This document shows, one piece after another, positions 28,499 through 44,931 of a stretch of 64,000 bases of DNA (position 1 is its first letter; each line of letters opens with the position of its first letter). Position numbers and translations under genes: made by a program. The DNA comes from Stieleria varia (GTDB taxonomy: Bacteria > Planctomycetota > Planctomycetia > Pirellulales > Pirellulaceae). A model generated the notes under the pieces. That model was not told the origin of the DNA. It saw only the letters and a program-made list of their open reading frames with translations, and searched no databases. The DNA lies in the NCBI RefSeq assembly GCF_038443385.1, contig NZ_CP151726.1:5084001-5148000 (forward strand), written 5' to 3'.

Positions 28499-28503
28499 GT
28501 TTG

Positions 28504-29059: not shown

Positions 29060-29342
29060 CTCAGACTCCGTAGTGTTAGAAAGGGGGTGAGGCTGGGAAG
29101 CACTGTATCGAGCTTGCTGATCTGCGCAAATGCCAATCCTTCGGCGGCGACGTCCACGATGTGGCCCCAGAGGACAAAAGGGTCAAGAGCCGTTTAGCAT
29201 GTCTTTACGTGAAGGATCCTGACCCTTCTGTACTTCCCTAGATCAGTGCGGAGCCAACGCGATGTGCAGGCATCGGGAGTTGGGCTTCCATGTCAAGTTG
29301 CTGACCACTGACGCTCCTGACCATCGCATCGAGATCCCACTT
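29060..29342. other. Intergenic, with a weak attC-like inverted repeat at 29253-29333
   Basis: No gene is seen. Arms CCAACGCGATGTGCAGGC and (complement) CGATGCGATGGTCAGGAG pair over about a dozen bases around a loop of some 40 bases, in the orientation of the minus-strand genes. It is the weakest member of the hairpin family described further right. Confidence 0.35.
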
Positions 29343-29843
29343 CTACAGGCCAGCGGCAGAAACGCCATTCGCGTGATGACTCTCGGACTTCAAAAAGGCG
29401 TCGTAAACGGCGTAGAATTCTGACTCGGTTAGAGTACGCGGGCGATCGCGGATTGACGTCGGAAGTAGCCGGTATACCGACATTCGGTAGTCGCGTCTCG
29501 AGTCCAAAATCGCAAGGGTCTGTTCAAGGCCGTCGCGATTGCAGCTTCCGCAGCATCCCTCGTATATCTCCGTCGAAAAACTCGAAAGTCCAGGCAAATC
29601 TGCCAGCCTCGATACGTCTAAATTGTCGTAGGCGTTGATTGGAACTGTCACATGCATTACGCGAGCACCTAAGAAAGGGCGTTGAAGTGACCAAGGCGCA
29701 TACTCAATACGCCCTCCATTGGATTCAACCTCGCGTATCAACATGAGCCGAGGATACTCAATCCATAGATAGGCCCCACACGGAACAGCCGCGAAGATGG
29801 TCGCCGTCAAGAGCGAGCGAATGCTGTAGCGAATTCTTGGCAT
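29343..29843 (-). CDS. Membrane-anchored hypothetical protein
   Basis: This 166-aa protein begins MPRIRYSIRSLLTATIFAAV, a planctomycete-style N-terminus leading into a membrane helix. A periplasmic or cytoplasmic domain with a CC..C cluster (YEGCCGSCNRDG) follows. It is preceded by an attC-like hairpin, as expected for a cassette gene. Function unknown. Confidence 0.65.
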   Translation of the reverse strand: MPRIRYSIRSLLTATIFAAVPCGAYLWIEYPRLMLIREVESNGGRIEYAPWSLQRPFLGARVMHVTVPINAYDNLDVSRLADLPGLSSFSTEIYEGCCGSCNRDGLEQTLAILDSRRDYRMSVYRLLPTSIRDRPRTLTESEFYAVYDAFLKSESHHANGVSAAGL

Positions 29844-29859
29844 GAGGTCTGTGGAATCG

Positions 29860-29932
29860 GAGGAGCTGACCGAAGATGGCCGTTGAGGTTTCCATTTGTA
29901 AACACGTCACGCCGTTCTTCGCTGATTGGCAT
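29860..29932 (-). repeat. attC-like hairpin
   Basis: On the minus strand the left arm is CAATCAGCGAAGAACGGCG and the right arm CGGCCATCTTCGGTCAGCTC. They are complementary over the core (CGAAGA, CGGC), with a loop containing TTTACAAATGGAAAC. That loop motif recurs at 31788-31869. The site overlaps the stop of the upstream gene, as attC sites do. Confidence 0.55.
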
Positions 29933-30560
29933 GATTCCGCAATTCACGTCCCATCGACGCGAGTCTGCTGGGAACGCGTATTAGAGCCGCTATGGTACAC
30001 GACAAAGCAATCAAGATCGCTGTCATCTCGTAGATGTCATGCGTGTCTAGAAAAAGCTTGCGACAAGTCACTAAAAGTGCCACGAATAATGTTGCGGCAA
30101 ACAGCGATGTTATTGAAAAGCGATATCGAGTCAGGCCCCCGTCCCGGACCCAAACGTACGTATCACACGTCACGAATATTGCTAATGCCGCATTAAGTAG
30201 TAGAGCGTAGACGTTTACATGGTCCCAAGGGCAATTGTCAAACGGCCACCGTGAATATGCCGCAAAGGGGGCCGGAAAAGATCTTGCCGATGGTTGACCT
30301 TTCTTGCCTACAGGATAGACACCGATACGAAAGAGTCCCGCGAATGGCCAGCCATGTATCCAGTTCCCTCCACCAGAGTTAAAGACGCGTTCTTGCGGCA
30401 CCTTGTAGTCCTGAAACGACGGAAGATTTGGATTGCGAGACTGGAGAGGAAATCGGAGTAAGTGCAAGGGTTGACCGTCTGCATTCACAATTGCAAATGC
30501 AGAGAGAGTGACAATTGCGGCTGCTATTGGGATTAGATTGTTGCGCAACTTAAGTAGCCT
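29907..30560 (-). CDS. Multi-pass membrane hypothetical protein
   Basis: The frame is open from 30752, but the first 60 residues come from palindromic repeats. I place the start near 30560-30540 (for example TTG in LRNNLIPIAAAIVTL). There are at least four membrane helices (NLIPIAAAIVTLSAFAI, VYALLLNAALAIFV, SLFAATLFVALLVTC, MTAILIALSCTIAALI). The C-terminal 60 residues resemble the fragment at 39075-39296 (KLFLDTHDIYEMTAILIAL versus RFILDTNDTVETVAMIIAF), so this is a repeated cassette family. Function unknown. Confidence 0.6.
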   Translation of the reverse strand, partial: RLLKLRNNLIPIAAAIVTLSAFAIVNADGQPLHLLRFPLQSRNPNLPSFQDYKVPQERVFNSGGGNWIHGWPFAGLFRIGVYPVGKKGQPSARSFPAPFAAYSRWPFDNCPWDHVNVYALLLNAALAIFVTCDTYVWVRDGGLTRYRFSITSLFAATLFVALLVTCRKLFLDTHDIYEMTAILIALSCTIAALIRVPSRLASMGRELRNHANQRRTA

Positions 30561-30660
30561 TTGTTTTCCGAACGCTGGCGGTATCCGAGACGCTGGGTTT
30601 GATCCGTGGATTGTACCGCCCGTTTCGCCCGCGTTGCAAATCGAGTCCTGAATCCGCGGG

Positions 30661-30722
30661 AACGAGAAAAGGTGAACGAGAAAAGGTGAACGACACCTTA
30701 TCTCCACCGACACCTTTTCTCG
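30661..30722. repeat. Palindromic mini-repeat, AGAAAAGGTG type
   Basis: Two direct copies of GAACGAGAAAAGGTG are followed by an inverted copy (CACCTTTTCTCG) and a diverged one between them. The same family is at 32219-32275, 39024-39071 and 41253-41285. Here it interrupts an attC-like 5' arm (minus strand TAACCATTCCGTTGCACACG) whose 3' arm is missing. Confidence 0.8.
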
Positions 30723-30810
30723 ACCCCTGGTTCTAATGTGCTTAGCTCTCAAGATCGCGTTGTCGCCCGCTCGTGTGCAACGGAATGGTTACACGGCGAT
30801 TCGGTATGAG

Positions 30811-31179
30811 TCAGCCGAGCGAAAGAACCCTGCAACCCGTGATCTCCTTAAGTCGAGACTCTTGCGAGGTCTTGAGAGGATTTACAAAAATGACAGTGTC
30901 CGCCTGACGATCGGAAGCCATAGCGGCAAGTTCGTCCACTTTGCCAGCACCAATAATCGTGGCGGCACGTAATGGCGCGTTCATTTTTGTGACCCCTCCA
31001 GGTTTCTTAGCGCTTGATACACCGCGACGTTGAACGACACGACCGACCACAGTTGCGCCGAGTCGAGTCAACATCGCTTCAACTTCGTCTATGTGCTGGG
31101 GCGCATCCTTGTCCTTGGCCGACACGAGTCCGGCGATTATGCATCGTGTTCCCGCAACGTCGCTTTCGCTGACTTTCAT
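30811..31179 (-). CDS. Stand-alone N-terminal domain of GTPase HflX
   Basis: About 122 aa match the HflX N-terminal domain: RCIIAGLVSAKDKD, GATVVGRVVQRRGV, then IGAGKVDELAAMASDRQADT and VIFVNPLKTSQESRLKEITG. The protein stops where the coiled linker and G domain should begin (VLSLG stop), so no GTP-binding motif exists. HflX uses this domain to bind ribosomes. I start at the ATG 31179, because upstream in-frame sequence is the attC-like hairpin. It may be a truncated gene or a deliberate single-domain cassette protein. Confidence 0.75.
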   Translation of the reverse strand: MKVSESDVAGTRCIIAGLVSAKDKDAPQHIDEVEAMLTRLGATVVGRVVQRRGVSSAKKPGGVTKMNAPLRAATIIGAGKVDELAAMASDRQADTVIFVNPLKTSQESRLKEITGCRVLSLG

Positions 31180-31212
31180 GACACAAGAAACTCCACTTAG
31201 GCTTTTCCGTAT

Positions 31213-31296
31213 AACGTAGTCGATCAGCCAGCGGCGACGGTTGATCTTCCATTTCAAGACACCCCACTACCGCGACTCGGTTGCATCGGATGGTTC
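31213..31296 (-). repeat. attC-like hairpin
   Basis: On the minus strand the left arm is AACCATCCGATGCAACCGAG and the right arm GTCGCCGCTGGCTGATCG, ending ACGTT. The AAC/GTT ends and the CGAT and GCGGCG-type blocks pair, with GTCTTGAAATGGAAGATC in the loop. It is nearly the same as the site at 42465-42546. Confidence 0.65.
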
Positions 31297-31309
31297 GTCG
31301 ATTGCTTGA

Positions 31310-31771
31310 CTATGAATCCGGGGCTCGGCAGTTGTACCGATTGACCAACCAGAAGACAAACGAAAGAAAACCGTGTGAAACTAAAGTTGCCAAAACAAAT
31401 GCCAACAAAGCATGCCCCCAAGACGGAACAAAGTTCCCCGATGCTCCCCAATAAATGAGCATCACTGGACCTTTGTTGCACCAGAATGCATTCAGATTGC
31501 CAAGCATCACGCCGACCGCAAGCAGCCAGCCATTGCCCCTCAGTGTTGAGAACCGATAGGCCAATACGGTTAAGAAGCCCAGGAGTGCTCCTCCCATGTA
31601 GGGGAATTCTGTTTCCCGAGGACCGGTCCAAATGGCAGCCCACTGTAAAGCGGTACCGAAGAAGAACCCGAATACCAACGATGGCCACCACCGGACTCGC
31701 GGAGTACCGGAGGCAAAATCGACTGCCGAGCGCGATTCGATTGGAGCGTAAGGATTGAGTGGTTCGGACAT
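31310..31771 (-). CDS. Membrane protein, NPYAP-type N-terminus
   Basis: This 153-aa protein begins MSEPLNPYAPIESRS, an N-terminus I associate with planctomycete membrane proteins. Four hydrophobic segments follow (WWPSLVFGFFFGTALQWAAI, GGALLGFLTVLAY, WLLAVGVMLGNLNAF, LLAFVLATLVSHGFLSFVF). An earlier ATG (31828) would start inside the neighbouring hairpin. The gene lies between two attC-like sites. Function unknown. Confidence 0.65.
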   Translation of the reverse strand: MSEPLNPYAPIESRSAVDFASGTPRVRWWPSLVFGFFFGTALQWAAIWTGPRETEFPYMGGALLGFLTVLAYRFSTLRGNGWLLAVGVMLGNLNAFWCNKGPVMLIYWGASGNFVPSWGHALLAFVLATLVSHGFLSFVFWLVNRYNCRAPDS

Positions 31772-31787
31772 ATTCGCTTCAACCGAC

Positions 31788-31869
31788 GAACGGTGGTCGT
31801 CACCGAGGACCGCCAATGTGGTTTCCATTTGTAACCGCGTGACGCGGTCCTTCGGTACACGACATGGTT
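31788..31869 (-). repeat. attC-like hairpin
   Basis: On the minus strand the left arm is AACCATGTCGTGTACCGAAG-GACCGC and the right arm GGCGGTCCTCGGTGACGACC, ending ACCGTTC. The loop holds GGTTACAAATGGAAACCAC, as at 29860. The GGACCGC/GCGGTCC core pairs perfectly. Confidence 0.68.
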
Positions 31870-31949
31870 CTGGCTTCAGGATCGCTCGGACGCTGGAGGT
31901 CGTAGATAAGTATCGCCCACCAGTTTACCGAATTCTGTATGTAGTGTCT

Positions 31950-32177
31950 CTACTCTTGTGTCGAAGATTCGTCGGTGTACGGCCTGAGTACAATTTCTGT
32001 CGCACTCGCCGGAGGGATGCGTCGCGTCAAACTGCTAATTAACGACGCGGGCACCGGATCGGAATAGAAATATACAGTTGGTGCGGAGTAGCATTGAAGC
32101 GATGCAGGGAGCGTAATTGCGAAAAAGAGTGTCACAATCAGAAGTGTCCGAATCGAGAATTGCGTAATAGGCCTCAT
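31950..32177 (-). CDS. Small membrane-anchored hypothetical protein
   Basis: This 75-aa protein from the ATG at 32177 begins MRPITQFSIRTLLIVTLFFA, a planctomycete-type N-terminus with one membrane helix, followed by a short exported tail. An in-frame extension to 32261 only translates the palindromic repeat upstream. It is followed downstream by the attC-like site at 31788-31869. Confidence 0.55.
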   Translation of the reverse strand: MRPITQFSIRTLLIVTLFFAITLPASLQCYSAPTVYFYSDPVPASLISSLTRRIPPASATEIVLRPYTDESSTQE

Positions 32178-32218
32178 GGTGCAATCTAAATGGGTAAGAG
32201 CAGTCGTTGTGTCGCAGT

Positions 32219-32275
32219 GTGAACGAGAAAAGGTGTCCGAACGAGAAAAGGTGTCCGACACCTTTTCTCGCGGAT
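32219..32275. repeat. Palindromic mini-repeat, AGAAAAGGTG type
   Basis: Two direct GAACGAGAAAAGGTGTCC units, the second forming a near-perfect palindrome with GGACACCTTTTCTCG. It separates the start of the gene at 32177 from a truncated group II intron. Confidence 0.85.
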
Positions 32276-32282
32276 CAGCGGC

Positions 32283-32476
32283 AAGGGCCCTTGGCGTCTT
32301 TCCACGACGTCCGGCGTCCAGCGCGCTTTATCCAACGAGTATCTGGCCGCTGAGGGCTTGTTTATTCTTGAAGAGTACTGGCTATCGCTTGCATCCTTGA
32401 GGCGAAACGCCTAGTGCGGACCCGCATGCTAGGTGTTGTGGGAGGGGTCCCGGGCAACCGGGCCCCTATCCCGATT
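32283..32476 (+). ncRNA. 3' end of a group II intron (domains V and VI), truncated
   Basis: Bases 32406-32437 fold like domain V: a 9-bp lower helix (AACGCCTAG with CTAGGTGTT, one G.T), a TG bulge and an upper TGCGG/CCGCA helix. Bases 32438-32476 fold like domain VI (GGGAGGGG with CCCCTATCCC and an unpaired A in TAT). The end CCTATCCCGATT is typical of bacterial class C introns, from recall. No reverse transcriptase or domains I-III remain; a palindromic mini-repeat stands at the 5' break. It ends 1 bp from the stop of the minus-strand gene 32478-32900, where an attC site would be expected. Confidence 0.65.
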
Positions 32477-32477
32477 G

Positions 32478-32900
32478 TCATGGTTCGCCGCTTACGTTAT
32501 CGGGATGTTTGCGCCTGTATCGCCGTGGAGGCGGGTTTCGATTCCAGGCGTATGTCCATTCATCCCACCATACAGTCAAAGACGTAAGGTGAAAATACAT
32601 CTTTGAATTGCGAGCAGTTGAATCAGCATCGATAAGCCCAAGTGCGCGGGCATGTTCCCAAATCGTGTCTCCAAAAATCATCGGCCGCTGCACCTTGGAT
32701 TGCACAAGTCGGTCACGTTCCTCGTCAACCCTGTAGCTCGGCCAGCAGTATCCGGCGCGATAGGCCTCCGAAAACACACGAAAGAAATCCTGCTTGTATG
32801 GCTCCTGTTCAACACTAACTACATCCTCGTAGCCCTTGAGCAAATCGAATATCTGATCGAGGAACGTAGCGTGTTCGGTCATCCATAGTTTTTTGGCCAT
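32478..32900 (-). CDS. Hypothetical protein
   Basis: This 140-aa soluble protein (MAKKLWMTEHATFLDQIFDL...) is rich in aromatics (WPSY, VWWDEWTYAW) and has a basic C-terminus (PPPRRYRRKHPD). Composition is convincing for a real gene. No family is recognised. It lies in the minus-strand cassette block; the site after its stop is occupied by the intron remnant. Confidence 0.65.
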   Translation of the reverse strand: MAKKLWMTEHATFLDQIFDLLKGYEDVVSVEQEPYKQDFFRVFSEAYRAGYCWPSYRVDEERDRLVQSKVQRPMIFGDTIWEHARALGLIDADSTARNSKMYFHLTSLTVWWDEWTYAWNRNPPPRRYRRKHPDNVSGEP

Positions 32901-32962
32901 AGCAGCAATCTATTGCACGCAATGTCTTTTGGAACCTAAGGCTCGTGGGCTCGCGGTCACGT

Positions 32963-33544: not shown

Positions 33545-33614
33545 GGTTTAGTTTCTGGCGCGAAATTGCATGGCAAGCCTGTCAGGTCAGCGGGCCTGGT
33601 TTCTGGGTATCAGT

Positions 33615-33700
33615 GAACGCTACGCGTAACCGGGAACGCGCGGGAAAGTGTCTAACGGCCAAATCGCTCAGCTCGCGTTCTCCGGTTCACGCGATGGTTA
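33615..33700 (-). repeat. attC-like hairpin
   Basis: On the minus strand the left arm is TAACCATCGCGTGAACCGGA-GAACGCG and the right arm CGCGTTCCCGGTTACGCGTA, ending GCGTTC. The CGCGT, ACCGG and AACGCG blocks pair, with a long loop. It is one of the clearest members. Confidence 0.7.
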
Positions 33701-33874
33701 CCCGCCAATGAAGCACATTATACCAGTTTAATTGCAAGCAGGTCATCACGATGAATCTGGCTCCTGGTACTCCGGAGGCGCTCAAAGGGGTCAGGCCTCT
33801 TTGTTCGCCAATTGCGTTCACCTAAGAAGCCTGATCCCTTTGTTTTCCTATCATGACAAACAGCGAGATTAACT

Positions 33875-34523: not shown

Positions 34524-34703
34524 GTCGCCGCGGACGCCGCCATGAGTTGGTTAGCGTAGTGCGATTCAATGAAGGGCGATCAAAGGAGTCAGACGATCAA
34601 GAGGGTCAGGTCTCGTTGTTTGCCAGTTGCGTTCACCTAAGAAGTTTGACCCCTTTGTTTTTTCCTTGCGTTCACCTAAGAAGCCTGACCCCTTTGTTTT
34701 TTT

Positions 34704-35045
34704 CTGCTGGGCAAGTGAGAGCGATCCGCTAGTCTGAATTCTCTCGATGACGGCCAGCAGGATGTCGATTCGCTGTGCTGGGATTTCGATGACGGCTCCG
34801 ACGGTCAGGCGAACTCTCAGAGGCGGTTCGTCATCGATTGACTCGCCGGGGAGAACTTCAACGGGCAGGAAAGTCTGCCTCGGTTGGTCGGCCGTTTGCG
34901 AGAGTTCTCGCCGCCATTTGTAAAAGGATGCGGTCGAGATTCTTTGGTTGTCACAAAACCGAGCGATGCTCAATCCCGAGTGTGACTGGCGAGAGATCAA
35001 TTCTCGCCAAGCCTGCCGCTGGGCAGGATCCGGTTTTCGCGTCAT
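34704..35045 (-). pseudogene. IS66-family TnpA (accessory protein), 3' end lost
   Basis: The N-terminal HTH matches IS66 OrfA: RQAWRELISRQSHSGLSIAR then FCDNQRISTASFYKWRREL. The C-terminal part (IEIPAQRIDILLAVIERIQ) is typical, but the frame then runs into the palindromic repeat at 34703 instead of its own stop. TnpB and TnpC are absent. Confidence 0.82.
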
Positions 35046-35119
35046 GGTGGACTCCGTGTAGGCGGGGCAAAACCCGCCAAGCTAAACCGGCAGTCAAGAT
35101 GAAACCTACGTGCGCTTAC
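34704..35119 (-). mobile_element. IS66 remnant with one terminal end
   Basis: On the minus strand the element begins GTAAGCGCACGTAGGTTTCA at 35119, a typical IS66 terminus, and contains only tnpA. Everything beyond 34704 has been replaced by the palindromic-repeat end of the 918-bp duplication. Confidence 0.75.
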
Positions 35120-35490
35120 CAAAAAGCAGATGAAACCATGCAAGGATGACACGGGATTGATCAATGAAGACGTCATAGAGTTTTCTGAACGTGGATGGTT
35201 CTTGAAGCCAAGGGTGGCACAAGCGGATTCGGGACGGCACAATATGGTCGCTAAATGAGTGGGCCGTGGATAGACAACGGCCTTCAACAAATATTGAATC
35301 TCAGTAAGCCCCCAACGAATGACAGTAGCGATCTGCAGTCCGCTGTTGACAATCATGATCGCGTTCTTGCATCCGTATCTCGATTCAATGTAACTCGAAA
35401 AGGATTTCTAATTGGAGTAGTTTCGGCGATTCATAAGATCGGTCGGAACGCGTCATACCTTCAAAACTGGCCAAGAGGCACCTGATCAAC
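35120..35490. other. No gene seen
   Basis: There are short ORFs of poor composition only. It probably holds the promoter of the gene at 35497. Confidence 0.45.
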
Positions 35491-35496
35491 ATGGTT

Positions 35497-36291
35497 AAGA
35501 TGGAAAAGCTAACTGCAAAAGACAAACATTTACTTGGTGCAGTTATTGACCGAGACTCAATTCACGCCCCGATCTTGAGCACATTTAGCGAAAAGGGGTG
35601 GTCAGATACGACTGACATCGGAATTTATAGGCGTATTGAATATGATCAACCAGAAGAATTGATTCGTGGAGTAGTGATTTCGGTTCGGCAGCGATGGAAT
35701 TCTTACGCGAATCAGCGGGAGCGAAATCGATTTCCAAATGATCTTTGGATGGAAGTCCTTTCCGCGTCCGCAGTACATGACAACCAACTCTTTAATAAGA
35801 TGATCGAAACTCTTCCAACGAGTGGGAAAGGACCATCAAATGCGACATGCGACCTAATAATTTACGAAAGATTGCTAGCGACGATCCGGAAAACACCATT
35901 GCCTGCAGAACACTTCAAACATAACGACTTCAAATCACGAAGGCGGCCGTACACAACTGCAATATTAGATTGTATTGCGTCGTTGTCCGCAGCTGATCCC
36001 GAAGTTTTCTCGGCTGGCCTAGAGAAGTTATTGGCATCTAGCCGAAATGACAGAACGGCTACAGCCGAAAGGCGACTCATGTGCATTCATGCTCATGGCC
36101 TTTGGGAGATTGGCAACAAAGTGAACCCTCAACTAATCTCAACCTGGGATGTGTCCACCAATTTGCCGTGGGATCGAGGCTTTCATGCTTTTGTCCAGGA
36201 GGTTGGGGAAGCAAGTAAATTCATTTCTGATTATACAACAAGTTCTCACTTGCTCAATCTAATCAAGCTGCAAGAGCTTCGTCCAAGTTGA
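35497..36291 (+). CDS. Hypothetical soluble protein
   Basis: This 264-aa protein (MEKLTAKDKHLLGAVIDRDS...) has an in-frame ATG two codons earlier. It is alpha-rich with conserved-looking aromatic and charged segments (PEELIRGVVISVRQRWNSYA, RRLMCIHAHGLWEIGN). Base composition is more AT-rich than the neighbours, suggesting separate transfer. No signal peptide, membrane segment or known motif. Immunity-type proteins have this style, but I cannot assign one. Confidence 0.65.
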   Translation, partial: KMEKLTAKDKHLLGAVIDRDSIHAPILSTFSEKGWSDTTDIGIYRRIEYDQPEELIRGVVISVRQRWNSYANQRERNRFPNDLWMEVLSASAVHDNQLFNKMIETLPTSGKGPSNATCDLIIYERLLATIRKTPLPAEHFKHNDFKSRRRPYTTAILDCIASLSAADPEVFSAGLEKLLASSRNDRTATAERRLMCIHAHGLWEIGNKVNPQLISTWDVSTNLPWDRGFHAFVQEVGEASKFISDYTTSSHLLNLIKLQELRPS

Positions 36292-36680
36292 CTAATGGAA
36301 CGAAATGGGTTGATGAAAAGGAGGAAGCCTCGCGGCGGAATTAAATGTTACCAGCCTTTTTGATGTTGCATTTTTGGCCGAATTGAGACTGGGTTAATTT
36401 TTGGTTCTTCTGAGGGGTGCGCGGCCGAATTGTTGCGAAGATTGGAGAGACCTCTCGACGGCGTTTTCTCAATCGACTCTCTTGGGATGTTCTTGGCCGA
36501 ATTGAGATCGGATGGTTTCATTGACCAGATGTGACTCAACTTTCACGGTCTCTTTCTGCGATCGCTCGGGCCGGATCGACTCGACAGCGCATCAAAAATG
36601 CGACCGCCCTTTTGGAACGGTCGCATTGCGATCTGCTTGTTTCCGATGATACCGGCACGATGCGGTGGCAACAGGTTTAG
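36292..36680. repeat. Transposon-end repeat cluster (TTGGCCGAATTGAGA)
   Basis: TTTTTGGCCGAATTGAGAC (about 36371-36389), GCGGCCGAATTGTTGCG (about 36420) and TCTTGGCCGAATTGAGATCG (about 36491-36510) are direct copies of a 15-17 bp motif. Multiple short repeats at an end are a feature of Tn7/Tn5053-type elements. A fused version of the cluster recurs at 38195-38268. No gene is seen here. Confidence 0.65.
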
Positions 36681-36681
36681 C

Positions 36682-37020
36682 TCACGAAGATTGTGATGAG
36701 GCCTGTTGCGACGGGGCGGATTGGCCGAGGTCGCTTCGGTATTGCTCCAGCCAACCTTCCAGGATTTTCACCGCTGGCAAGAAGTCGTGCCCGTAGTGCA
36801 TCATCAAGTCGATGTTGCTGGTGTTTTCCCCGCAACAGAAGCAATGAGCCATGTTGTTTTTCGGATTCAGCGTCGCCCGTACTTCGCCGCAACGGGGACA
36901 CTGAAAACGAAAGTATCCGTCCGCTTGTTTCCCGATCGGACCGCGACGCCCCAGTCGACTCACGGTTAACTTCATCGGTAATTCGTTGCGGATTGCCCGC
37001 AGGAGTTGTTTTGTAATCAT
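36682..37020 (-). CDS. CHC2-type zinc-finger protein of a transposon
   Basis: This 112-aa protein (MITKQLLRAIRNELPMKLTV...) has a zinc ribbon like that of DnaG primase: CPRCGEVRATLNPKNNMAHC followed by FCCGENTSNIDLMM. It is too short to be a primase. In planctomycetes I associate such proteins with a transposon module also encoding an ExeA-like ATPase, present next to it. It probably helps target binding. Confidence 0.75.
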   Translation of the reverse strand: MITKQLLRAIRNELPMKLTVSRLGRRGPIGKQADGYFRFQCPRCGEVRATLNPKNNMAHCFCCGENTSNIDLMMHYGHDFLPAVKILEGWLEQYRSDLGQSAPSQQASSQSS

Positions 37021-37065
37021 AGGATTGCCCAAGGTGTGAAGTAAAGAAGTGAGTGGGGATGAATT

Positions 37066-37869
37066 TCAAGAATCCATCAGGTCGACCTCCTTTTGCCTGT
37101 GGGGTTGCATCAGCACGCGGTTGACCAAGTCGATGTCGATCGTCGTGCCCGACGAGGCACGCACCGCTTCGAGCATCGAAGCAAGACAGAGGTTGCGGCA
37201 ACGACGCAGCACTCCGTCGGCGGTGCGGATGATCAACTCGATCGCACCGGCGGTGAACGTGTTGTGCCCCAATCCGATGCGATCAAGCTGACGCTCGATG
37301 AACTCACGCATCGCGTCTTCGTGCAGACGTTTGGTAATGACTGAATAAGTCACACGGCTTTTGATGTCCTGGTTGACCGCCAGATCCAAGCTTGCGAGCA
37401 ACTCGACTTGGCCGACCAGGATCAAGTTGTGGTTCTTAGGAAAATCCTCCAGCAGGAGCCGCAAGCGGCGGAGGTTTTCCATGTCCATTAGGTGCGCGTC
37501 ATCGATGACCGTGACGAGCATCTTGCCCGATCGATTCAGAGCGAAAGCTTGCTGGATCAGTTTGCGTTCGCATTTGAACGCGCTGGTTTCGAACTCGATC
37601 TTGAAGGCCTCACAGAGGATCTTCACCGTGTTGGTGTAGGTGTGCAGCGTGCGTGCGATCGACGCGACCAGGTAGTCTTTGTCGGGAAGTCGCTTGAGGG
37701 ACTCTTTGATCACGGACTTGCCCGTTCCGGGGCGACCGACCACCAGGCACAAGCCGCCTTGTTGGCTGTGAACACGTAGCGTGTCGTGGATTTCTTGCTG
37801 GTGGGAGAGCAGTTCAATGTCGCGCAGGGCGAATGGGTCTTGAGTGAGACCGAAGTAGGATCGAATCAT
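37066..37869 (-). CDS. ExeA/TniB-like AAA+ ATPase of a transposon
   Basis: This 267-aa protein (MIRSYFGLTQDPFALRDIEL...) has Walker A GRPGTGKS and Walker B VTVIDDAHLM, with sensor-like LILVGQVELL and an arginine-rich C-terminus (DGVLRRCRNLCLASMLEAV). Such ATPases select targets for DDE transposases in Tn7/Tn5053-type elements. The upstream extension to 37983 translates a repeated leader and is not used. The DDE transposase is missing from the window. The same start (MIRSYF) recurs, truncated, at 38511. Confidence 0.82.
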   Translation of the reverse strand: MIRSYFGLTQDPFALRDIELLSHQQEIHDTLRVHSQQGGLCLVVGRPGTGKSVIKESLKRLPDKDYLVASIARTLHTYTNTVKILCEAFKIEFETSAFKCERKLIQQAFALNRSGKMLVTVIDDAHLMDMENLRRLRLLLEDFPKNHNLILVGQVELLASLDLAVNQDIKSRVTYSVITKRLHEDAMREFIERQLDRIGLGHNTFTAGAIELIIRTADGVLRRCRNLCLASMLEAVRASSGTTIDIDLVNRVLMQPHRQKEVDLMDS

Positions 37870-38095
37870 GGGTGGATGTTGGAAATGGGAGGAGTGAAGT
37901 TGGTAGTTGGCTTTTCGTGCTCGAAGTCGCTTGGGATGGATGCGTGTTGGGTGAAGCAACGTTTCAGCGCTCAGCCCTCTCATCCCCAGCCCTTCTCCCC
38001 CAGAAAAGCTGGGGGAGAAGGGAGCCAGGGTGGACGAGTGGTGCGGATTGTGGTTCGGGGCCCACGGCTATGCGCGGATGATTCATCAGCCGGCA
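37853..38095 (+). repeat. Duplicated leader of the ExeA-like gene, copy 1
   Basis: It is about 85-90 percent identical to 38494-38727. It holds the gene start, a CTTCTCCCCCAG/CTGGGGGAGAAG hairpin (about 37993-38021) and the common GGGCCCACGGCTA tail. Confidence 0.85.
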
Positions 38096-38158
38096 CGCGA
38101 TAGCGTCCAGTTCCCGATGACAGGCGTGAGAACCGGACGCTATCGCGTGGCGGCTGAT
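38085..38158. repeat. Inverted repeat with GCGATAGCGTCC arms
   Basis: Arms ATCAGCCGGCACGCGATAGC-GTCC (38085-38108) and their complement (38135-38158) pair over 24 bp with one mismatch. The loop is 26 bp and includes GTTC and GAAC that also pair. It may be an element end or a planctomycete interspersed repeat. Confidence 0.85.
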
Positions 38159-38194
38159 ATGCGCAGACTGTCTTCGTGCCAATCCACGTAAACT

Positions 38195-38727
38195 GTTACC
38201 GGCCTTTTTGATGTCGCATTCTTGGCCGAATTGAGATCGGATGGTTTCATTGACCAGATGTGACTCATTGTTCACGGTCTACGTAAGATGGATTCTTTGC
38301 TTCCGCCGGGCTTGCCCCGGTTCGGAGCAACAAATGGCAGCTACCCTCAACACAATCGCATTCACTTCCCCACCGCCCGCGAATCGCCTTTGGCGATTCG
38401 CGGGCGGTGGGGAAGTTTTGTTGGCTTGGGCAAGTAGCCGTCAGTTGTTTCCTCCGCCGAGACAAGCTCGACGGAAGGAACTGCTAATCAGAGAAAGTAG
38501 GATCGAATCATGGGTGGAAGTTTGAAGTGGGAGGAGTGAAGTTTGAAGTTGGCTTTTCGTGCGCGAAGTCGCTTGGAATAGGCATGTGTTGGGTGAAGCA
38601 ACGTTTCAGCGTTCAGCCCCCTCATCCCCAGCCCTTCTCCCCCAGAAAAGCTGGGGGAGAAGCCAGAGTGGACGAGTGGTGCGGATTGTGGTACGGGGCC
38701 CACGGCTAGCCCGGATTATTCACGTCT
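38195..38727. mobile_element. Internally deleted derivative of the CHC2/ExeA element
   Basis: It begins with a fused copy of the end cluster (GTTACCGGCCTTTTTGATGT ... TTGGCCGAATTGAGATCGGA). It ends with the ExeA leader, in which the ATG at 38511 reads only MIRSYFL before a stop. Everything between has been replaced by unrelated sequence containing a long hairpin. It is tandem to the larger copy at 36347-38095. Confidence 0.7.
38366..38414. repeat. Perfect 23-bp hairpin with 3-nt loop
   Basis: TTCCCCACCGCCCGCGAATC-GCC is followed by TTT and its exact complement. It is very GC-rich, with no T run after it, so not an ordinary terminator. Confidence 0.95.
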
Positions 38728-39071: not shown

Positions 39072-39074
39072 GGA

Positions 39075-39296
39075 ACCATTCTATTCTTGCTTAAGGCCGT
39101 GTTAGTCGTGGCCGTCCTATTGACCTTCCGAAGATTCATCCTGGATACCAACGACACTGTCGAGACCGTGGCGATGATCATTGCATTTTCGGCGATAACC
39201 ATTACTCTGATACGAGTTGTTGTCGGCATCCGGTCTCTGGGGAAAATGTTGCAGAGCAAGGCGATGAACGACGAGCGGCAAAGTCAAGTTGTATAA
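39075..39296 (+). pseudogene. Truncated membrane protein, cassette remnant
   Basis: Two membrane helices (LKAVLVVAVLLTFRRFIL and VAMIIAFSAITITLIRVVVG) resemble the C-terminal end of the protein at 29907-30560, here without its first 150 residues. The open frame extends into the palindromic repeat and an ATG at 39003, which is not original. An attC-like site follows. Confidence 0.65.
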
Positions 39297-39337
39297 AGTG
39301 GTGGATCACTCGTCGCCGCCGCGTGATCGCAGCCGTT
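39258..39337 (+). repeat. attC-like hairpin (diverged)
   Basis: The left arm GGCGATGAACGACGAGCGGC and right arm CGCCGCCGCGTGATCGCAGC-CGTT pair in the GCGAT and CGGC blocks. The AAC at the left end is not preserved. Confidence 0.5.
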
Positions 39338-39355
39338 CTGCCAAGCAAATTGACC

Positions 39356-39802: not shown

Positions 39803-39917
39803 GACGTTGATCTGGAAATGGCAGAGTGTCATCAAAGGTGTCAGGACTCTTTTTCGAGTCAGGCAAGAGCCGGGGGTCAGCCTGGAAGAGCCGGGATCAA
39901 ATTTTGAAGGCGACCAC
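39803..39917. other. Intergenic with degenerate palindromic-repeat pieces
   Basis: Fragments such as AAAGGTGTCAGGACTC and GGGGTCAGCCTGGAAGAGCC show layered repeat insertions just before copy B of the 918-bp repeat. Confidence 0.5.
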
Positions 39918-40006
39918 AGGGGTCAGGCCTCTTTGTTCGCCAATTGCGTTCACCTAAGAAGCCTGATCCCTTTGTTTTCCTATCATGACAAACAGCGAGA
40001 TTAACT

Positions 40007-40579
40007 ATGCTTGGATTTCCACGGCCACTCGTCTTTGCTGAACCGCCACCGTACGTCGATGGCACTGGTGCTGAATATGCGCGGACATTGGCCGAGAAAG
40101 GACAACGGCATTCTTTCCGACTAATCGTAATCGGATGGGTCTTCATTATCGCCGCGGGCATTTGCGCACTGCTGGGGACAACCGCACGAACCCAATTTGA
40201 GGTTGAGGAGAAGGACGGCGACGTCATCGCGTTGAAGTCCGGAGCCGGGCACTGGCTCCACGCCAACATTGGAATGGTTTTCGGCGTTTGCGCAATCGTG
40301 TTTGCCGGAATTGGCTGGCAATCACTCGATAGGGCGACGGCGGCCGCACTGCTAGCGTCAGCTGCGACAACCGCACTGTCGTTCTTGCCCGCTGCCGTTG
40401 ATGAAACCGCAGATATTAAGGTCTATAAGATGTGCCTTGAGGCGAAGTCAGGATGGCTCGAAGGGCGAATGAACCACGACCGGAGAAATACGATCGCTCA
40501 GTCTTTTTTTGGTGAAGGCAATACCCAACCGACCTCACGTAACCCAAAACCGATACCCAACGACGCCGACGAACAATGA
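40007..40579 (+). CDS. Three-helix membrane protein, cassette copy B
   Basis: It is identical to the 190-aa protein at 33875-34447 except Met for Thr in NIGMVFG. The same attC-like site follows. Confidence 0.75.
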   Translation: MLGFPRPLVFAEPPPYVDGTGAEYARTLAEKGQRHSFRLIVIGWVFIIAAGICALLGTTARTQFEVEEKDGDVIALKSGAGHWLHANIGMVFGVCAIVFAGIGWQSLDRATAAALLASAATTALSFLPAAVDETADIKVYKMCLEAKSGWLEGRMNHDRRNTIAQSFFGEGNTQPTSRNPKPIPNDADEQ

Positions 40580-40655
40580 CATCCACCGAAGGACGCCAGC
40601 CAAGCGATTTAGCATTGGTGACTCTTTCACGCGTCCCCGGTGACGAGCGACGTTC
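40572..40655 (+). repeat. attC-like hairpin, copy B
   Basis: Identical to 34440-34523. Confidence 0.7.
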
Positions 40656-40836
40656 GTCGCCGCGGACGCCGCCATGAGTTGGTTAGCGTAGTGCGATTCA
40701 ATGAAGGGCGATCAAAGGAGTCAGACGATCAAGAGGGTCAGGTCTCGTTGTTTGCCAGTTGCGTTCACCTAAGAAGTTTGACCCCTTTGTTTTTTCCTTG
40801 CGTTCACCTAAGAAGCCTGACCCCTTTGTTTTTTTT

Positions 40837-41202: not shown

Positions 41203-41252
41203 AGGAAGAGCAAAGCCGTGAACCGGAGCACGCGATCCTGCGATTTTGACAT

Positions 41253-41285
41253 GGTCGAGAAAAGGTGTCAGACACCTTTTCTCGT
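41253..41285. repeat. Palindromic mini-repeat, AGAAAAGGTG type (perfect)
   Basis: TCGAGAAAAGGTGTC-A-GACACCTTTTCTCGT is a perfect 14-bp palindrome around one base. It interrupts an attC-like site. Confidence 0.9.
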
Positions 41286-41414
41286 TCGCAGGGTGTCAGG
41301 GAATTGGATCTCGGTACGTCGCGAATTGCATCCGAGTTTGCGAAACGTCCGCGTGTTTTCCCCGACCCATCGCCTGTGCGAGAAAAGGGGATGGAGGTCT
41401 TTGTTGCATTCGTA

Positions 41415-41841
41415 AGATGGAACTCCCCTCCAGGTCCGATTCGGGCGTCCTGAGATTGGCTTCCAGCATTCCAGGCCTTCCCTTTTGTTGGGCACGTATA
41501 GCATTGAGCAACGTCTCACACACCTCTGCCAAACACGGGCACTCTTTCAATCGTTTCCTCCAGCGAAATTCCAGCAGCGCTTCTGCCACTTTCAGGCGTT
41601 TCCAAATGGCCATGCCCTCGGATTTGACGCAAATTAAGTAGGCAACAACATGCTCACCATCAAACTCCCACCGCTCACGCTGGGCAGTCTGATGATCCCA
41701 TCGCAACTTCGCGTGCCAGATCGCCAGCCAATCAGGCTTCTCCGATGCGAGAACGCTATCATGCACCCTATCGCTCCCATGATCCCGCCTGCTCTTGGGT
41801 TTTGTCGTTCCGTGCCTTTCAGCTCCGAAATCCAAAGGCAC
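41415..41841 (-). pseudogene. Possible N-terminal fragment of an integron integrase
   Basis: The minus-strand frame encodes SEKPDWLAIWHAKLRWDH, EFDGEHVVAYLICVKSEG and MAIWKRLKVAEALLEFRWRK. This resembles, from memory, the N-terminal extension and SAM-like core-binding region of planctomycete integron integrases (the WKRLK...E.L pattern). The frame then runs into a repeat (GGGATGGAGGTCTTTGTTGC) and no catalytic R-H-R-Y region remains. Its place, divergent from the plus-strand cassettes, fits IntI. Other tyrosine recombinases or an unrelated protein are possible. Confidence 0.4.
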
Positions 41842-41907
41842 AAACTGTCCGTGCTGTCAAAATGCAGTCCCTACTAAGCGGTGCCAACCCCACCCGGAAT
41901 TGCTCTC

Positions 41908-42050
41908 AAAGCGGCAACTGCCTATAATGCGTGGAGTTCTTATTGGTAAATTGCTGCAAAGCTTGGTCAAAATCAGTCAACTGCCAATAAGACCGGGATA
42001 ACGCGAGGGGCAACCGCCCATAAGGCGTCATGTAGCCAACCGCCAAGTCC
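41908..42050 (+). promoter_or_regulatory. Candidate attI-like direct-repeat region
   Basis: Between the IntI-like fragment and the first plus-strand gene there are four spaced copies of a CAACYGCC(N)ATAA motif: GGCAACTGCCTATAATGC (41913), GTCAACTGCCAATAAGAC (41976), GGCAACCGCCCATAAGGC (42009) and GCCAACCGCCAAG (42035). Integrase-binding direct repeats are expected at attI. The role is inferred from position. Confidence 0.4.
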
Positions 42051-42083
42051 TAACCCCCTTTATCACAAGTTCGCTGCGAAACA

Positions 42084-42542
42084 GTGGAACCCGACAACCC
42101 AAACGCTAAACACACCGTTACGATCCACGGAGACGAATGGAAGGTTGTCGACCTCACGGACGAGGTAGCATGGGCTCTGACGCAGGTATGGCGCAGAGAG
42201 AAATGGAAGCCGTCCGCCGCATTGATCGACAAATCAGGCGGGAGCAGCACGCAGTACCAGGGCCAGAGCTTCGATGCAACGAAAACGGATCTGGTAAGTG
42301 AAGGTTGGACTCACGATCATTGTGCCATCTGCTGGTGGACGCTACATGAAAGCGAGAATGAAGACGAGGGCACAGGCTACCGAAGCCAAGGCAATGCATG
42401 GCTTTGTGGAGAGTGTTTCGGTAAGTTCATCCGAGATGACTCACTAGGCCTTACCACAGCAGCGAACCAGCCGATGCAACCGAGCGGCGAAGTCGGGCGT
42501 TTTGAAGTGAATGATCAACCGTCGCCGCCCGCTGATCGGTAA
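42084..42542 (+). CDS. Small Cys-pair protein, cassette gene
   Basis: This 152-aa protein has a GTG start (VEPDNPNAKHTVTIHGDEWK...). Two Cys pairs (HCAICWWTL and WLCGECFGKF) could bind zinc. The last 25 residues (NQPMQPSGEVGRF...) are encoded by the attC-like hairpin itself, so the gene stop is within the recombination site. It is the first gene after the attI-like region. Function unknown. Confidence 0.65.
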   Translation: MEPDNPNAKHTVTIHGDEWKVVDLTDEVAWALTQVWRREKWKPSAALIDKSGGSSTQYQGQSFDATKTDLVSEGWTHDHCAICWWTLHESENEDEGTGYRSQGNAWLCGECFGKFIRDDSLGLTTAANQPMQPSGEVGRFEVNDQPSPPADR

Positions 42543-42546
42543 CGTT
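42465..42546 (+). repeat. attC-like hairpin
   Basis: The left arm AACCAGCCGATGCAACCGAG-CGGCGA and right arm TCGCCGCCCGCTGATCGGTA-ACGTT pair with AAC/GTT, CGAT/ATCG and GCGGCGA/TCGCCGC blocks. The spacers between blocks are unequal, as in attC. The loop contains GTTTTGAAGTGAATGATC. Confidence 0.72.
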
Positions 42547-42569
42547 CGTTGGACTGAGGAGTAACGTTT

Positions 42570-42998
42570 TTGCGATTTCCACAATTTCGCCTGAAAGCCA
42601 TTTTTTTATTCGTTGCACTGATCGCGGTTGCGTTCGCGCTGGAACGGCTCTCTCGCGGAACATCTGCTGCAACGTATGGTGCCTTTCAGGACACCGTAAG
42701 TCCCGGCAACGTTGCGACGATTGAAGACTGGCTAAACAATAACCACTACGAACGAACATCTAAACCGCGTTGGGCAGCCGACTATGTCGACTCGGAGCAA
42801 GATTGGTATCGATCCACTAGTGATGACTTTCCGCTATTCGTGGACGTACGTCGCTACTCAGAAGTTCTCGCGATTGATGTACACTACGAGATAGAACTAG
42901 CTGCCTTCCAAACTGCCAAAGCCGAACGAAAAGTTGCAGAAACCCGCGCATCGATCATACGGGCTGTGATGCAATCCCAATCGCTGTCGGAAAATTAG
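42570..42998 (+). CDS. Membrane-anchored hypothetical protein
   Basis: This 142-aa protein starts with TTG (LRFPQFRLKAIFLFVALIAV), a planctomycete-type anchor, followed by an exported domain rich in Trp and Tyr (NNNHYERTSKPRWAADYVDS). It lies directly after an attC-like site, in the position of a second cassette. Function unknown. Confidence 0.6.
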   Translation: MRFPQFRLKAIFLFVALIAVAFALERLSRGTSAATYGAFQDTVSPGNVATIEDWLNNNHYERTSKPRWAADYVDSEQDWYRSTSDDFPLFVDVRRYSEVLAIDVHYEIELAAFQTAKAERKVAETRASIIRAVMQSQSLSEN

Positions 42999-43207
42999 AA
43001 GACCAGAAAAAGGGATGAAGACCAGAAAAAGGGATGGGGGTCTTTGTTGCATTCAGACCTTTTGCGATTCCCTCAGCGCAAGCTTGCTATTCAAGGCTCA
43101 TGCGGGGATAATCCTGAAAAATTCCGCAACAACCTTGCGGTAAATATCCCCCATCCCTTGTTCTTATCCCGCATCAACCCGTGATAAACAAGTTATCGGG
43201 CAATACC
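42999..43207. repeat. AAAAAGGGATGGGG-type mini-repeat
   Basis: Two direct copies of GACCAGAAAAAGGGATG and one GGGGTCTTTGTTGCATTC are followed by an inverted CCCCCATCCCTTGTTCT at about 43150. A copy is also at 41387-41414, where the IntI-like fragment ends. Confidence 0.7.
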
Positions 43208-44362
43208 ATGCGTTACGTCATTGTCATATCGATTACTCTGGCCATGTGCGGTTGCTCAGAGCAACGTGCGCACAACGCCGAAGCTAAAACCCAGCCCCGA
43301 TCAGCCGCTCAGCCACTTACGCCGATTGAAAATCCAGATCTGGACTCGGAAGACGTCTCCCTCACTGACATTCCGAAGCTCAACCTCTCTCCAGCTTCCG
43401 AGCCTTCTCACAGCGATGAGCAGATCGAGAAACTGATTGCTTCTCTCGCCGCCATCGAAAGTCCAGATTTTGGTCTTTCTCCTACAATGAGCGGCAACGC
43501 CTTTTTGCCAATTGAAGGACAGAGTAACGCGGGTGCCCTCTTGCTCACCGACCACAAAATCAAGTCTTCTGATGCGCTGAAACAGCTCGTCGCAGTCGGC
43601 CCCACCGCGTTGCCAGCGTTACTGGCGCACCTGGATGATGCGACGCCGACCAAACTCAAGATCGACCATGGCGGGGATTTTGGTGGCATGTGGTTCGCCA
43701 ACGAACTCTGGGGCAATCCGGTCAACAAGACAGAACAATCTGCTCTCCAAGCTCGTCCGCAAAATGAGAATGATCCGTTGGGCGGCGATCACGTCGATTC
43801 GTACACGGTCAAGGTTGGCGATATTTGTCTCGTTGCTATCGGCCAGATCACGGGTCGCGGATATCAAACCGTCCGGTATCAACCGACAGCCTGCATTGTT
43901 CTCAACAGCCCCACTCACGACCAACTGTTGTGTGCACAAATTCGCGCAATGTGGCAAAGCGACGACCCGAGACAGCGACTGTTCGATTCACTTCTGTTTG
44001 ATTTCGCGACACGTGGTAAATTTAACGGTGAGTCATTCGATGGTTGGTACGTTGGAAGCAATCTGCAAAAGGAAGCCGCAATGCGGTTGCTATACTACTA
44101 TCCCGACGCATCCGCTCGGCTGATCGCCGACCGGCTTCGCAAATTGGATGTCCGAGAGACTGGGCCACCCAGTTCACAAGCAGCAAGCGAGTCGGAAATG
44201 GAAGTTTGGGTGAAACGCGAGGTTGCCAACGGTATCCGCACTGATGACTTCATCAAGGCCGTCGCATGGTGCAAGCATCCGGCCATCGTCGAGGAAATCA
44301 AAGGTATCGCGGCTCGCACGGACGATCAGGACATAGCTGAAGTCGTCGGTGAAGCCCGCTAA
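43208..44362 (+). CDS. Lipoprotein of unknown function, cassette gene
   Basis: This 384-aa protein starts MRYVIVISITLAMCGCSEQR, with a lipobox (LAMC/GC), so it is a lipid-anchored exported protein. A HEAT-like element is visible (ALKQLVAVGPTALPALLAHL). A second helical region is at the C-terminus (KAVAWCKHPAIVEEIKGIAA). It is large for a cassette gene. Its TAA stop is the first triplet of the next attC-like site, as in canonical cassettes. Confidence 0.7.
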   Translation: MRYVIVISITLAMCGCSEQRAHNAEAKTQPRSAAQPLTPIENPDLDSEDVSLTDIPKLNLSPASEPSHSDEQIEKLIASLAAIESPDFGLSPTMSGNAFLPIEGQSNAGALLLTDHKIKSSDALKQLVAVGPTALPALLAHLDDATPTKLKIDHGGDFGGMWFANELWGNPVNKTEQSALQARPQNENDPLGGDHVDSYTVKVGDICLVAIGQITGRGYQTVRYQPTACIVLNSPTHDQLLCAQIRAMWQSDDPRQRLFDSLLFDFATRGKFNGESFDGWYVGSNLQKEAAMRLLYYYPDASARLIADRLRKLDVRETGPPSSQAASESEMEVWVKREVANGIRTDDFIKAVAWCKHPAIVEEIKGIAARTDDQDIAEVVGEAR

Positions 44363-44443
44363 CAATTGCGTGAACCGGAGCGGCGAATCCGGCGGCATCT
44401 GAAATCAACGCGCAACGTCGCCGCCCGGTGACGCTGGTTGTTA
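44360..44443 (+). repeat. attC-like hairpin, the best match
   Basis: The left arm TAACAATTGCGTGAACCGGA-GCGGCG and right arm CGCCGCCCGGTGACGCTGGT-TGTTA pair at TAACAA/TTGTTA, GCGT/ACGC, ACCGG/CCGGT and GCGGCG/CGCCGC. The left end is very close to classical attC starts (TAACAATT). Confidence 0.75.
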
Positions 44444-44472
44444 TCGCAAAGAGAACAATTTGAGACTCGCCG

Positions 44473-44772
44473 ATGCCCTCCGATCTCGTCCGAGACATCT
44501 TGCGTAGGATACTGAAGCCACGCTGGTACGATCGCGTACTGTTCTTTCCCCAACGTAGGCTGTCCGATGAGCAGCGACGTTTTCTAGCAAACTACGTCGC
44601 AATCCTAGACTCGATGACGCCAAAAGAGCGAGAGCGACCCAATGTCATCGACGATTCTCGAACTAGCCGAATAGTGATTGGAAGTGGCGTCGACCCAACA
44701 ATTGCCGGAGCGATTTTGCGAGGACTGAAACGGTCTTCCTATCGGCGTGGCACGGATTCCGCTGACAACTAG
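44473..44772 (+). CDS. Stand-alone SRP54 (Ffh) M-domain-like protein
   Basis: This 99-aa product contains AILDSMTPKERERPNVIDDS followed by RTSRIVIGSGVDPTIAGAIL. That is the signature of the Ffh M-domain region that binds 4.5S/SRP RNA (SMT.KER..P..I..SR..RIA.GSG). There is no G domain and no room for the methionine-rich signal-binding groove. It lies between two attC-like sites, so it is a single-domain cassette gene. It may interfere with or modulate SRP, or be a captured fragment. Confidence 0.75.
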   Translation: MPSDLVRDILRRILKPRWYDRVLFFPQRRLSDEQRRFLANYVAILDSMTPKERERPNVIDDSRTSRIVIGSGVDPTIAGAILRGLKRSSYRRGTDSADN

Positions 44773-44848
44773 CTTGATTTGTTCTCGTACAATTTCCAGC
44801 CAAACCAAGTCACTCGACGGTTTTCTCCCAAATGCCGGAATGCGATAT

Positions 44849-44931
44849 CCATGACATCCACCGAAGGACGCGACCCGCACATTTTGGCAATGGTGAGTCT
44901 TTCACGCGTCCTCGGTGATGTCCGACGTTCA
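44849..44931 (+). repeat. attC-like hairpin
   Basis: The left arm CCATGACATCCACCGAAGGA-CGCG and right arm CGCGTCCTCGGTGATGTCCG-ACGTT pair (CGCG, GGACG, CACCGA, GACATC). It shares ATGACATCCACCGAAGGACGC with the site of the 918-bp repeat. It is the last clear site at the right. Confidence 0.68.

Follow-up and report, generated by a model that had tools for sequence, protein, structure and literature searches.

The window analysed here is a stretch of 64,000 nucleotides (positions 5084001-5148000) of the single-contig, 9,719,866-base genome of Stieleria varia, a planctomycete of the family Pirellulaceae, and the element in question is a cluster of integron attC recombination sites. Ten such sites, four leftward (minus strand) and six rightward (plus strand), are accompanied by an integron leader ending in attI and by the N-terminal remnant of an integron integrase gene, intI (Table 1). 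We consider it very probable that the locus represents the decayed remains of a chromosomal integron in a Pirellulaceae planctomycete, with captured cassettes, and that it was later rearranged. The attI leader and the intI remnant make it a decayed integron and not merely an attC cluster lacking an integrase.

Table 1. Features of the attC cluster, in window positions, and the integrase genes of the genome. R1 and R2 are the covariance models described in the text.
Feature	Position	Strand	Evidence or remark
Decayed attC	29247..29339	-	R2 13.7 bits (E 0.15 over the whole window; 0.001 when 401 bases were scanned locally)
attC	29851..29940	-	R1 64.6 bits; R2 26.2 bits
attC	31208..31299	-	R1 68.1 bits; R2 62.6 bits; relatives hold similar DNA
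attC	31784..31873	-	R1 91.2 bits; R2 82.5 bits
Group II intron 3' fragment	32294..32491	+	Domains V/VI 32405-32475; Rfam RF00029 38.7 bits, gathering score 40
attC, first of left block	33611..33703	-	R1 73.7 bits
928-bp duplicated segment	33776..34703	+	Gene 33875-34447 and attC; bounded by GGGTCAGG/CCTGACCCC repeats
attC within duplicated segment	34436..34527	+	R1 76.2 bits; identical to 40568-40659
Inserted zone between blocks, transposon debris	34566..38722		Pfam and repeats
Transposase-like open reading frame	34566-35045	-	HTH_Tnp_1, below Pfam cut-off
AAA ATPase	37066-37983	-	AAA_22, above Pfam cut-off
Direct repeats	37853-38085/38495-38722		Repeat search
attC	39251..39342	+	R1 55.2 bits; R2 60.2 bits
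Other copy of 928-bp segment	39908..40835	+	Holds attC 40568
attC	40568..40659	+	R1 76.2 bits; R2 61.9 bits
Integron leader ending in attI	41427..42073	+	Predicted cut G^TT about 42069/42070
intI pseudogene	41428..41814	-	Residues 9-139 of IntI type B (131 residues), N-terminal part only; inside open reading frame 41296-41841
First cassette after attI	42084..42551	+	Open reading frame 42084-42542 with attC 42461-42551
attC of first cassette	42461..42551	+	R1 75.4 bits; R2 81.4 bits
Second cassette	42545..44447	+	Cut points 42545-44437; open reading frames 42570-42998 and 43181-44362; attC 44357-44447
attC of second cassette	44357..44447	+	R1 68.1 bits
Third cassette	44438..44934	+	Open reading frame 44473-44772, attC 44843-44934; cut points
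attC of third cassette	44843..44934	+	R1 78.4 bits
Six integrase genes (genome positions)	42.4-43.8 kb, 5.376, 6.859, 6.975, 8.366, 8.777 Mb		TIGR02249

A first-pass annotation, made from the letters alone, had described ten hairpins of attC type and a weak one near 29253, with shared AAC...GTT ends, paired blocks and unequal spacers, in two opposing directions, and had proposed a covariance-model search and a folding check. We built two such models. Model R1 comprised 11 sites, nine from the window and two from elsewhere in the genome, and scored the ten window sites at 55-91 bits (E <= 2.2e-17); its sole further window match at E <= 1 lay on the opposite strand of 44357 (16.7 bits, E 0.0085), and in 212 kb it gave 156 matches at E <= 1, the ten window sites included. 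Model R2 was built from 145 genomic sites, none from the window; because its members had been found with R1, the test that it offers is partly circular and not fully independent. R2 found the same ten sites at 26-82 bits (weakest 29859-29940, E 2.3e-5) and, in the window at E <= 5, these and the decayed site at 29247-29339 and no others. On 128 kb from 11 other loci it gave a single match, at E 0.13, and in view of these window scores and this single control match we regard it as specific. Both models thus place all ten hairpins where they had been reported, four on the minus strand followed by six on the plus strand. When trimmed, the window sites align as units of 89-93 nt with paired arms and extra bases in the left arm, most of them carrying AAC close to the left end and GTT close to the right; attC sites are laid out in this way. 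Class 1 attC sites have extrahelical bases, to which the extra bases here may be likened.

Support also came from covariation. Cells changed on both sides of a pairing numbered 40 in an alignment of 11 sites and 731 in one of 147, against 18.7 and 248 in shuffles, and the paired cells, the both-side changes and the covariation score lay above all 500 shuffles in both alignments. Two other counts were unremarkable, that of pairs showing a double change (equalled or exceeded in 46 and 28 of 500 shuffles) and that of further pair types (314 and 465 of 500), and alignment A3, which was made against the structure of the model, leans toward that structure. Single-strand DNA folding, which is weaker evidence for attC than the models, gave z of -1.4 or lower at seven of the nine distinct window sites; the decayed site gave z = +0.24. 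Within that decayed site, 72 nt are 89% identical to DNA within the attC match at 8757202-8757292, and the clear site 33611-33703 shares 94-95% identity with attC sites at 8762357, 6977856 and 5367484. That the window hairpins are integron attC sites is strongly supported.

The platform to which some of these sites belong is still readable. Aligned over 657 columns with the attI/intI-proximal stretch of the integrons at 5.376 and 6.858 Mb, the leader shows 82% identity. It ends at 42073 in ..CACAAGTTCG, with the first cassette directly after, and this end, ..TATCACAAGTTCG, is close to the type B attI of integrase-bearing integrons, ..AATTACAAGTTC (type B being one of two integrase types in this genome, described below). 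By homology, then, the predicted attI adjoins the first cassette, as in an integron. The intI remnant, divergent from the leader and beside the first cassette, matches IntI type B with 65.6% identity (tblastn, E 1.8e-44). Its differences from intact type B by codon position, 33/24/38, give little sign of constraint, and for this reason the fragment looks like a pseudogene despite the open reading frame (ORF) around it; on the same figures we set aside a functional short protein made from the retained fragment. Three sites (42461, 44357 and 44843) lie downstream of attI, while 39251 and 40568 lie on its intI side and point toward the platform. The window holds no complete intI and no TIGR02249 match. 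With ten attC sites and no such match it has the make-up of a CALIN (cluster of attC sites lacking integrases), and the label of integrase-less cluster offered earlier is correct as to the missing enzyme; it misses the attI leader and the intI remnant at 41.43-42.07 kb.

Six integrase genes in the genome score above the curated TIGR02249 cut-off, against none in 14 control genomes, and each adjoins, in the customary divergent arrangement, a one-directional attC array (29, 44, 30, 34, 37 and 50 matches). R1 on the whole genome gave at least 150 matches (150 scored of 2920 candidates). We scanned 518 kb, namely the window and 28 stretches chosen around R1 matches and integrases, in which 292 attC-like matches at E <= 1e-6 form 18 clusters. 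AAC occurs in the first 12 nt of 249 of these matches and GTT in the last 14 nt of 247. Low-scoring matches (33 fall below 36 bits) often lie about 217 nt from a stronger site and, where they do, may be secondary hairpins. The first-pass reading of the hairpins as an integron was therefore right in kind, given the matches to both models, the arrays elsewhere in the genome and the cassette identity that ends at G^TT (below).

The integrases fall into two types, A and B, that share 35% identity. Four genes encode type A (462 aa), three of them with 99% protein identity to the copy at 42.8 kb, and two encode type B, 98% identical. Both types carry a tyrosine-recombinase domain, preceded by about 130-150 extra residues (in type A also by comparison with its best solved relative, IntI4; 2a3v, E 8e-63). 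This N-terminal extension of about 130 residues (for example L132:1430-2761) is conserved in five aligned relatives and had no Pfam match in the two proteins of Pirellulaceae integron integrases searched. Copies of the platform, that is attI with intI, are 95-99% identical within a type and share a start point, the attI cut; among the seven type B copies examined the far-side end, ..CGGATCG, is nearly the same. Pieces of the type B platform, some short, occur at ten further clusters including that of the window; leaving aside some matches of about 40 nt, only the clusters at 156-157 kb and 9.43 Mb lack a counted piece. The same internal deletion join, or its repeat-copy equivalent, recurs at 369.9 kb, 1.975 Mb, 2.554 Mb and 7.674 Mb, and the intI fragment of the window ends at the same place as this join.

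Two other repeated elements were seen in the arrays. One, of about 2.95 kb (L018:14589-17545, also at 5.359, 6.846, 6.989 and 8.768 Mb), encodes a 347-aa tyrosine recombinase and a zinc-finger transposase, and we take it to be IS91-like; all five copies of its recombinase in the genome lie inside attC arrays, and there is a partial copy at 5.739 Mb. The other consists of 73-bp tandem repeats with GGCGTTAAACGAG-like ends (L051:11700-12340 and L054:9300-9900), related to the sequence that follows type A intI.

Gene direction agrees with site direction across the scanned clusters: in 130 of 271 cases the site coincides with the end of an ORF of at least 120 codons, compared with 23 of 271 for sites turned round (21 of the 292 sites, having no flanking DNA, were dropped). 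In the window, a tight form of the test, with the ORF end at -60 to +30 nt of the site start, gave ORFs of 172, 139, 190, 190 and 393 codons at five of the ten sites; with the sites flipped, three gave 90, 105 and 159 codons. Under looser limits a same-strand ORF of at least 97 codons ends near or inside all ten. The earlier statement that the hairpins always match gene direction thus holds loosely, and the tight test bears it out at half of the sites. Some window cassettes contain more than one ORF. Among the three after attI, the product of ORF 42084-42542 had no Pfam match, the stop codon of ORF 43181-44362 falls within attC 44357-44447, and ORF 44473-44772 is a lone signal peptide binding domain (Pfam SRP_SPB, 41.9 bits). 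The cluster holds further small single-domain genes whose domains usually occur within larger proteins, at 30811-31257(-) (GTP-bdg_N) and 39323-39802(+) (MshEN), alongside that at 44473-44772(+). PADLOC gave no match on ten ORFs, and a plasmid search gave none.

Evidence for exchange between arrays was obtained from 197 cassettes, six of them in the window, cut at the predicted G^TT (45 of the 292 sites, without a readable GTT, were omitted, and neighbours more than 4 kb apart were left unjoined). One family of 411-433 bp has 31 members across several arrays (35494-35916, 170560-171400 and 6850458-6850876, among others), and several other cassettes have 100% copies in different arrays. The arrays of the 411-433-bp family also show weak attC-like matches about 217 nt from strong sites. 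Between clusters, 19 cassette pairs of at least 97% identity were listed and 11 of them examined. In eight, identity broke off no more than 4 nt from the predicted cut at both ends, in two it did so at one end and in one at neither; the three pairs without two-sided G^TT ends may be larger duplications. Of the eight two-sided pairs, two join type A and type B arrays, and four involve the array at 170-175 kb, which has intI pieces only.

We next consider the relatives. Across 60 genomes, that of S. varia included, intI was found at E <= 1e-60 in 22, among them 12 of the 14 in the genus. The six here compare with one or two intI matches in 11 of the 13 congeneric genomes and none in two; among one-contig genomes of the genus, the four besides that of S. 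varia carry 1, 1, 1 and 2, one of the last two being partial. A genome of another genus of the family (G036) has four, one with a stop codon and one partial. R1, for which at most the best 72 candidates per genome were scored, matched 41 of the 60 genomes, again including that of S. varia, and all 14 of the genus, and gave no match in 17 of 23 genomes from other families of the order. The closest named records to the type A IntI are from Neorhodopirellula, Aporhodopirellula, Roseimaritima and Rhodopirellula, all of which we take to be Pirellulaceae (Rhodopirellula was the one looked up). A contig named Rhodopirellula baltica carries an intI relative, 68% identical to type A, beside two attC matches of the same model.

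Copies of the window attC sites occur in relatives at up to 96% identity, and matches to the window genes are rare. In the remaining 13 genomes of the genus the flanks of the locus matched in part or not at all and so offered no empty site for comparison, and the arrangement of the blocks was found neither there nor in 39 relatives, where at most seven candidates per genome were scored, so that genes may be missed. Among the candidates scored in the 39 relatives, the block matches fall in attC sites, intron pieces and short repeats, with two exceptions, both from G044, which belongs to another family: one match (66-73%) covers about 43.65-44.10 kb and the other, near 32.55 kb, is 32 nt long. 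The protein of ORF 43181-44362 has relatives in three of 59 other genomes, namely G044 (53%, E 1.2e-103), G026 (43%) and, weakly, one of the genus (E 2.2e-4). As R1 finds nothing in G044 at E <= 1e-6, the gene there is not in a cassette visible to R1. A gene-hairpin order fixed across distant genomes, which the first-pass annotation held to be incompatible with an integron, was seen neither among the 39 relatives nor in this one-gene protein search.

Taken together, the evidence best fits the following course of events. The original platform very probably comprised attI together with a divergent intI gene of the long, type B sort. From established integron biology we infer that IntI-type recombination would cut the folded bottom strand of an attC within the GTT core and join it to attI, or to a second attC, and that every captured cassette would bring one or two small genes in the attC direction. 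Of intI, the catalytic part disappeared, so that attI and the N-terminal remnant are what is left. At a later stage, transposon insertions and short dispersed repeats would have duplicated one cassette, and the same repeats and insertions would have brought in, or turned round, a second cassette block, which now points leftward. Since six integrase genes remain elsewhere in the genome, the attC sites and attI of the window may still serve as substrates in trans.

Several observations weigh against this account. Only three of the ten clear sites lie downstream of the attI that was found; the other seven, like the decayed site, do not. In the tight ORF-end test the other five window sites gave fewer than 50 codons. 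At 29851 (z -0.10) and 31208 (z +0.90) folding was no better than in shuffled DNA. The site at 29247-29339 is weak: R2 recovers it as a decayed minus-strand attC, in line with the weak hairpin first noticed, and R1 misses it. As for recent mobility, the window cassette genes have no copy in the other arrays of the 518 kb scanned. Finally, in the type A gene at 8.777 Mb the reading frame is broken around residue 50-60, within the N-terminal extension, and six genes over the cut-off therefore need not amount to six active enzymes.

The layout of the window is itself exceptional, as it alone among the 18 clusters mixes attC orientations (4 minus, 6 plus), so that its cassettes, by contrast with those of integron arrays, do not all point the same way. 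Leftward throughout is the left block, made up of 33611, 31784, 31208, 29851 and the decayed 29247. Its junction with the rightward sites, at 33776, is the left edge of the 928-bp segment, about 70 bp upstream of the first left attC, and to judge from the sequence the cassette upstream of attC 33611 appears to be cut short there. The two copies of the segment differ by 4 mismatches in 928 (99.6% identity) and both begin and end in GGGTCAGG-type repeats, not in attC cuts. An 85-base piece of this repeat has 31 genome matches, most of them 22-28 nt long. The palindrome GAGAAAAGGTGTCNGACACCTTTTC has nine genome matches (up to two mismatches) at five places, with six matches (three places) in the cassette region of the window and two (one place) in the attC cluster at 5.34-5.38 Mb. 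Copies of the intron fragment at 32294-32491 occur in many attC clusters of the genome and in relatives, and it may be a relic of attC-targeting introns; no Rfam family reached its gathering score in the window, and among the 10 Rfam matches at E <= 1 in 28500-46000 the group II intron fragment alone was useful. Directly left of the cluster, tandem repeats with a 45-bp period span 28003-28599.

The cause of the opposing blocks is something that we infer. Because their junction is the edge of a repeat-flanked 928-bp segment, with transposon debris and palindromes, we favour rearrangement over insertion by the integrase, and lean towards inversion or translocation at short dispersed repeats, with transposon insertions, as the somewhat probable source. 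The concentration of the palindrome in the window and the mixed orientation of this one cluster in 18 also agree with such rearrangement; against it, the un-rearranged order was found in no relative searched, and no clean inverted-repeat pair was seen flanking the left block, the one inverted pair of at least 40 bp reported being two attC sites. The suggestion that two halves of one array were inverted is a possibility. The right half is not a single array: it consists of a trio downstream of attI, a pair on the intI side and the site at 34436 in the 928-bp duplicate.

An insertion of the leftward block, and of the cassettes upstream of attI, by IntI at attG sites in either orientation is unlikely by our estimate. 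The genome does have small scattered clusters, and cassette integration at attG across many genomic loci of Escherichia coli is discussed in one study (PMC12444791); yet the upstream edge of the block is the border of a repeat-bounded duplicate and not a G^TT join, the other 17 clusters have a single orientation (one being a single site), and 16 of the 18 carry a platform or a piece of one, which free attG insertion does not predict. We regard as improbable a scattered cassette cluster that never had an integrase of its own, a reading that agrees with the lack of a TIGR02249 match in the window; the divergent leader and intI remnant beside the first cassette contradict it for the three right-hand cassettes, and it may yet hold for the left block. 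That the hairpins are transcription terminators, repetitive extragenic palindromic (REP)-like repeats or miniature inverted-repeat transposable element (MITE) ends can be virtually dismissed: they are intergenic and palindromic, and two folds are no stronger than in shuffled DNA, but their uniform 89-93 nt layout, AAC/GTT ends and unequal arms, the six integron integrase genes adjoining such sites and the cassette identity that ends at G^TT speak otherwise.

The decayed integron thus favoured can be compared with known systems. Sedentary chromosomal integrons, as in Vibrio, Xanthomonas and Treponema, have attI, attC sites with paired boxes and extra bases on one arm, and a divergent intI, and one integrase-bearing platform per genome is usual. 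The S. varia integrons are alike in attI, attC layout, cassettes in the attC direction, divergent intI and, in arrays outside the window, apparent swaps at G^TT. They differ in that the present genome has six integrase-bearing platforms, that the window intI is only an N-terminal remnant and that the window cassettes point both ways. CALINs are defined by at least two attC sites without an integrase nearby and can be mobilised in trans (PMC12444791). The window resembles them in having at least two attC sites and no complete intI, and departs from them in keeping attI and a piece of intI, so that its origin in a complete integron is readable, and in its mixed orientation.

Within the same phylum, the Rhodopirellula baltica integron shares the type A-like intI with attC sites of the same model, whereas the intI copy number of six sets the present genome apart. 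Integrons of Planctomycetes have already been reported (PMC2426708, PMC3108266), and an attC model for them has been published (PMC8352920). We found no description of a six-integron chromosome in the literature searched, which covered few subscription papers and is no proof of absence. Planctomycete integrons are thus known, and the number of platforms is the unusual part.

In summary, the locus is very probably a decayed integron, of a known type but with an unusual two-way layout, and the surrounding genome may be the part that deserves specialist attention. The locus suggests a route to two-way hairpin clusters, in which intI loses its catalytic part, attI and the cassettes stay, and repeats reshuffle the rest. 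More tentatively, with intI at four type A and two type B platforms and type B pieces at ten further clusters, the platform (attI with intI) could be a multicopy element of two distantly related types that was copied round one chromosome, all arrays, broken ones like that of the window included, forming one exchange network in which the integrases would shuffle cassettes throughout. The genome of S. varia offers a natural setting for asking whether multiple integrases, of both types, draw on one cassette pool, and whether integron platforms can multiply within a chromosome.

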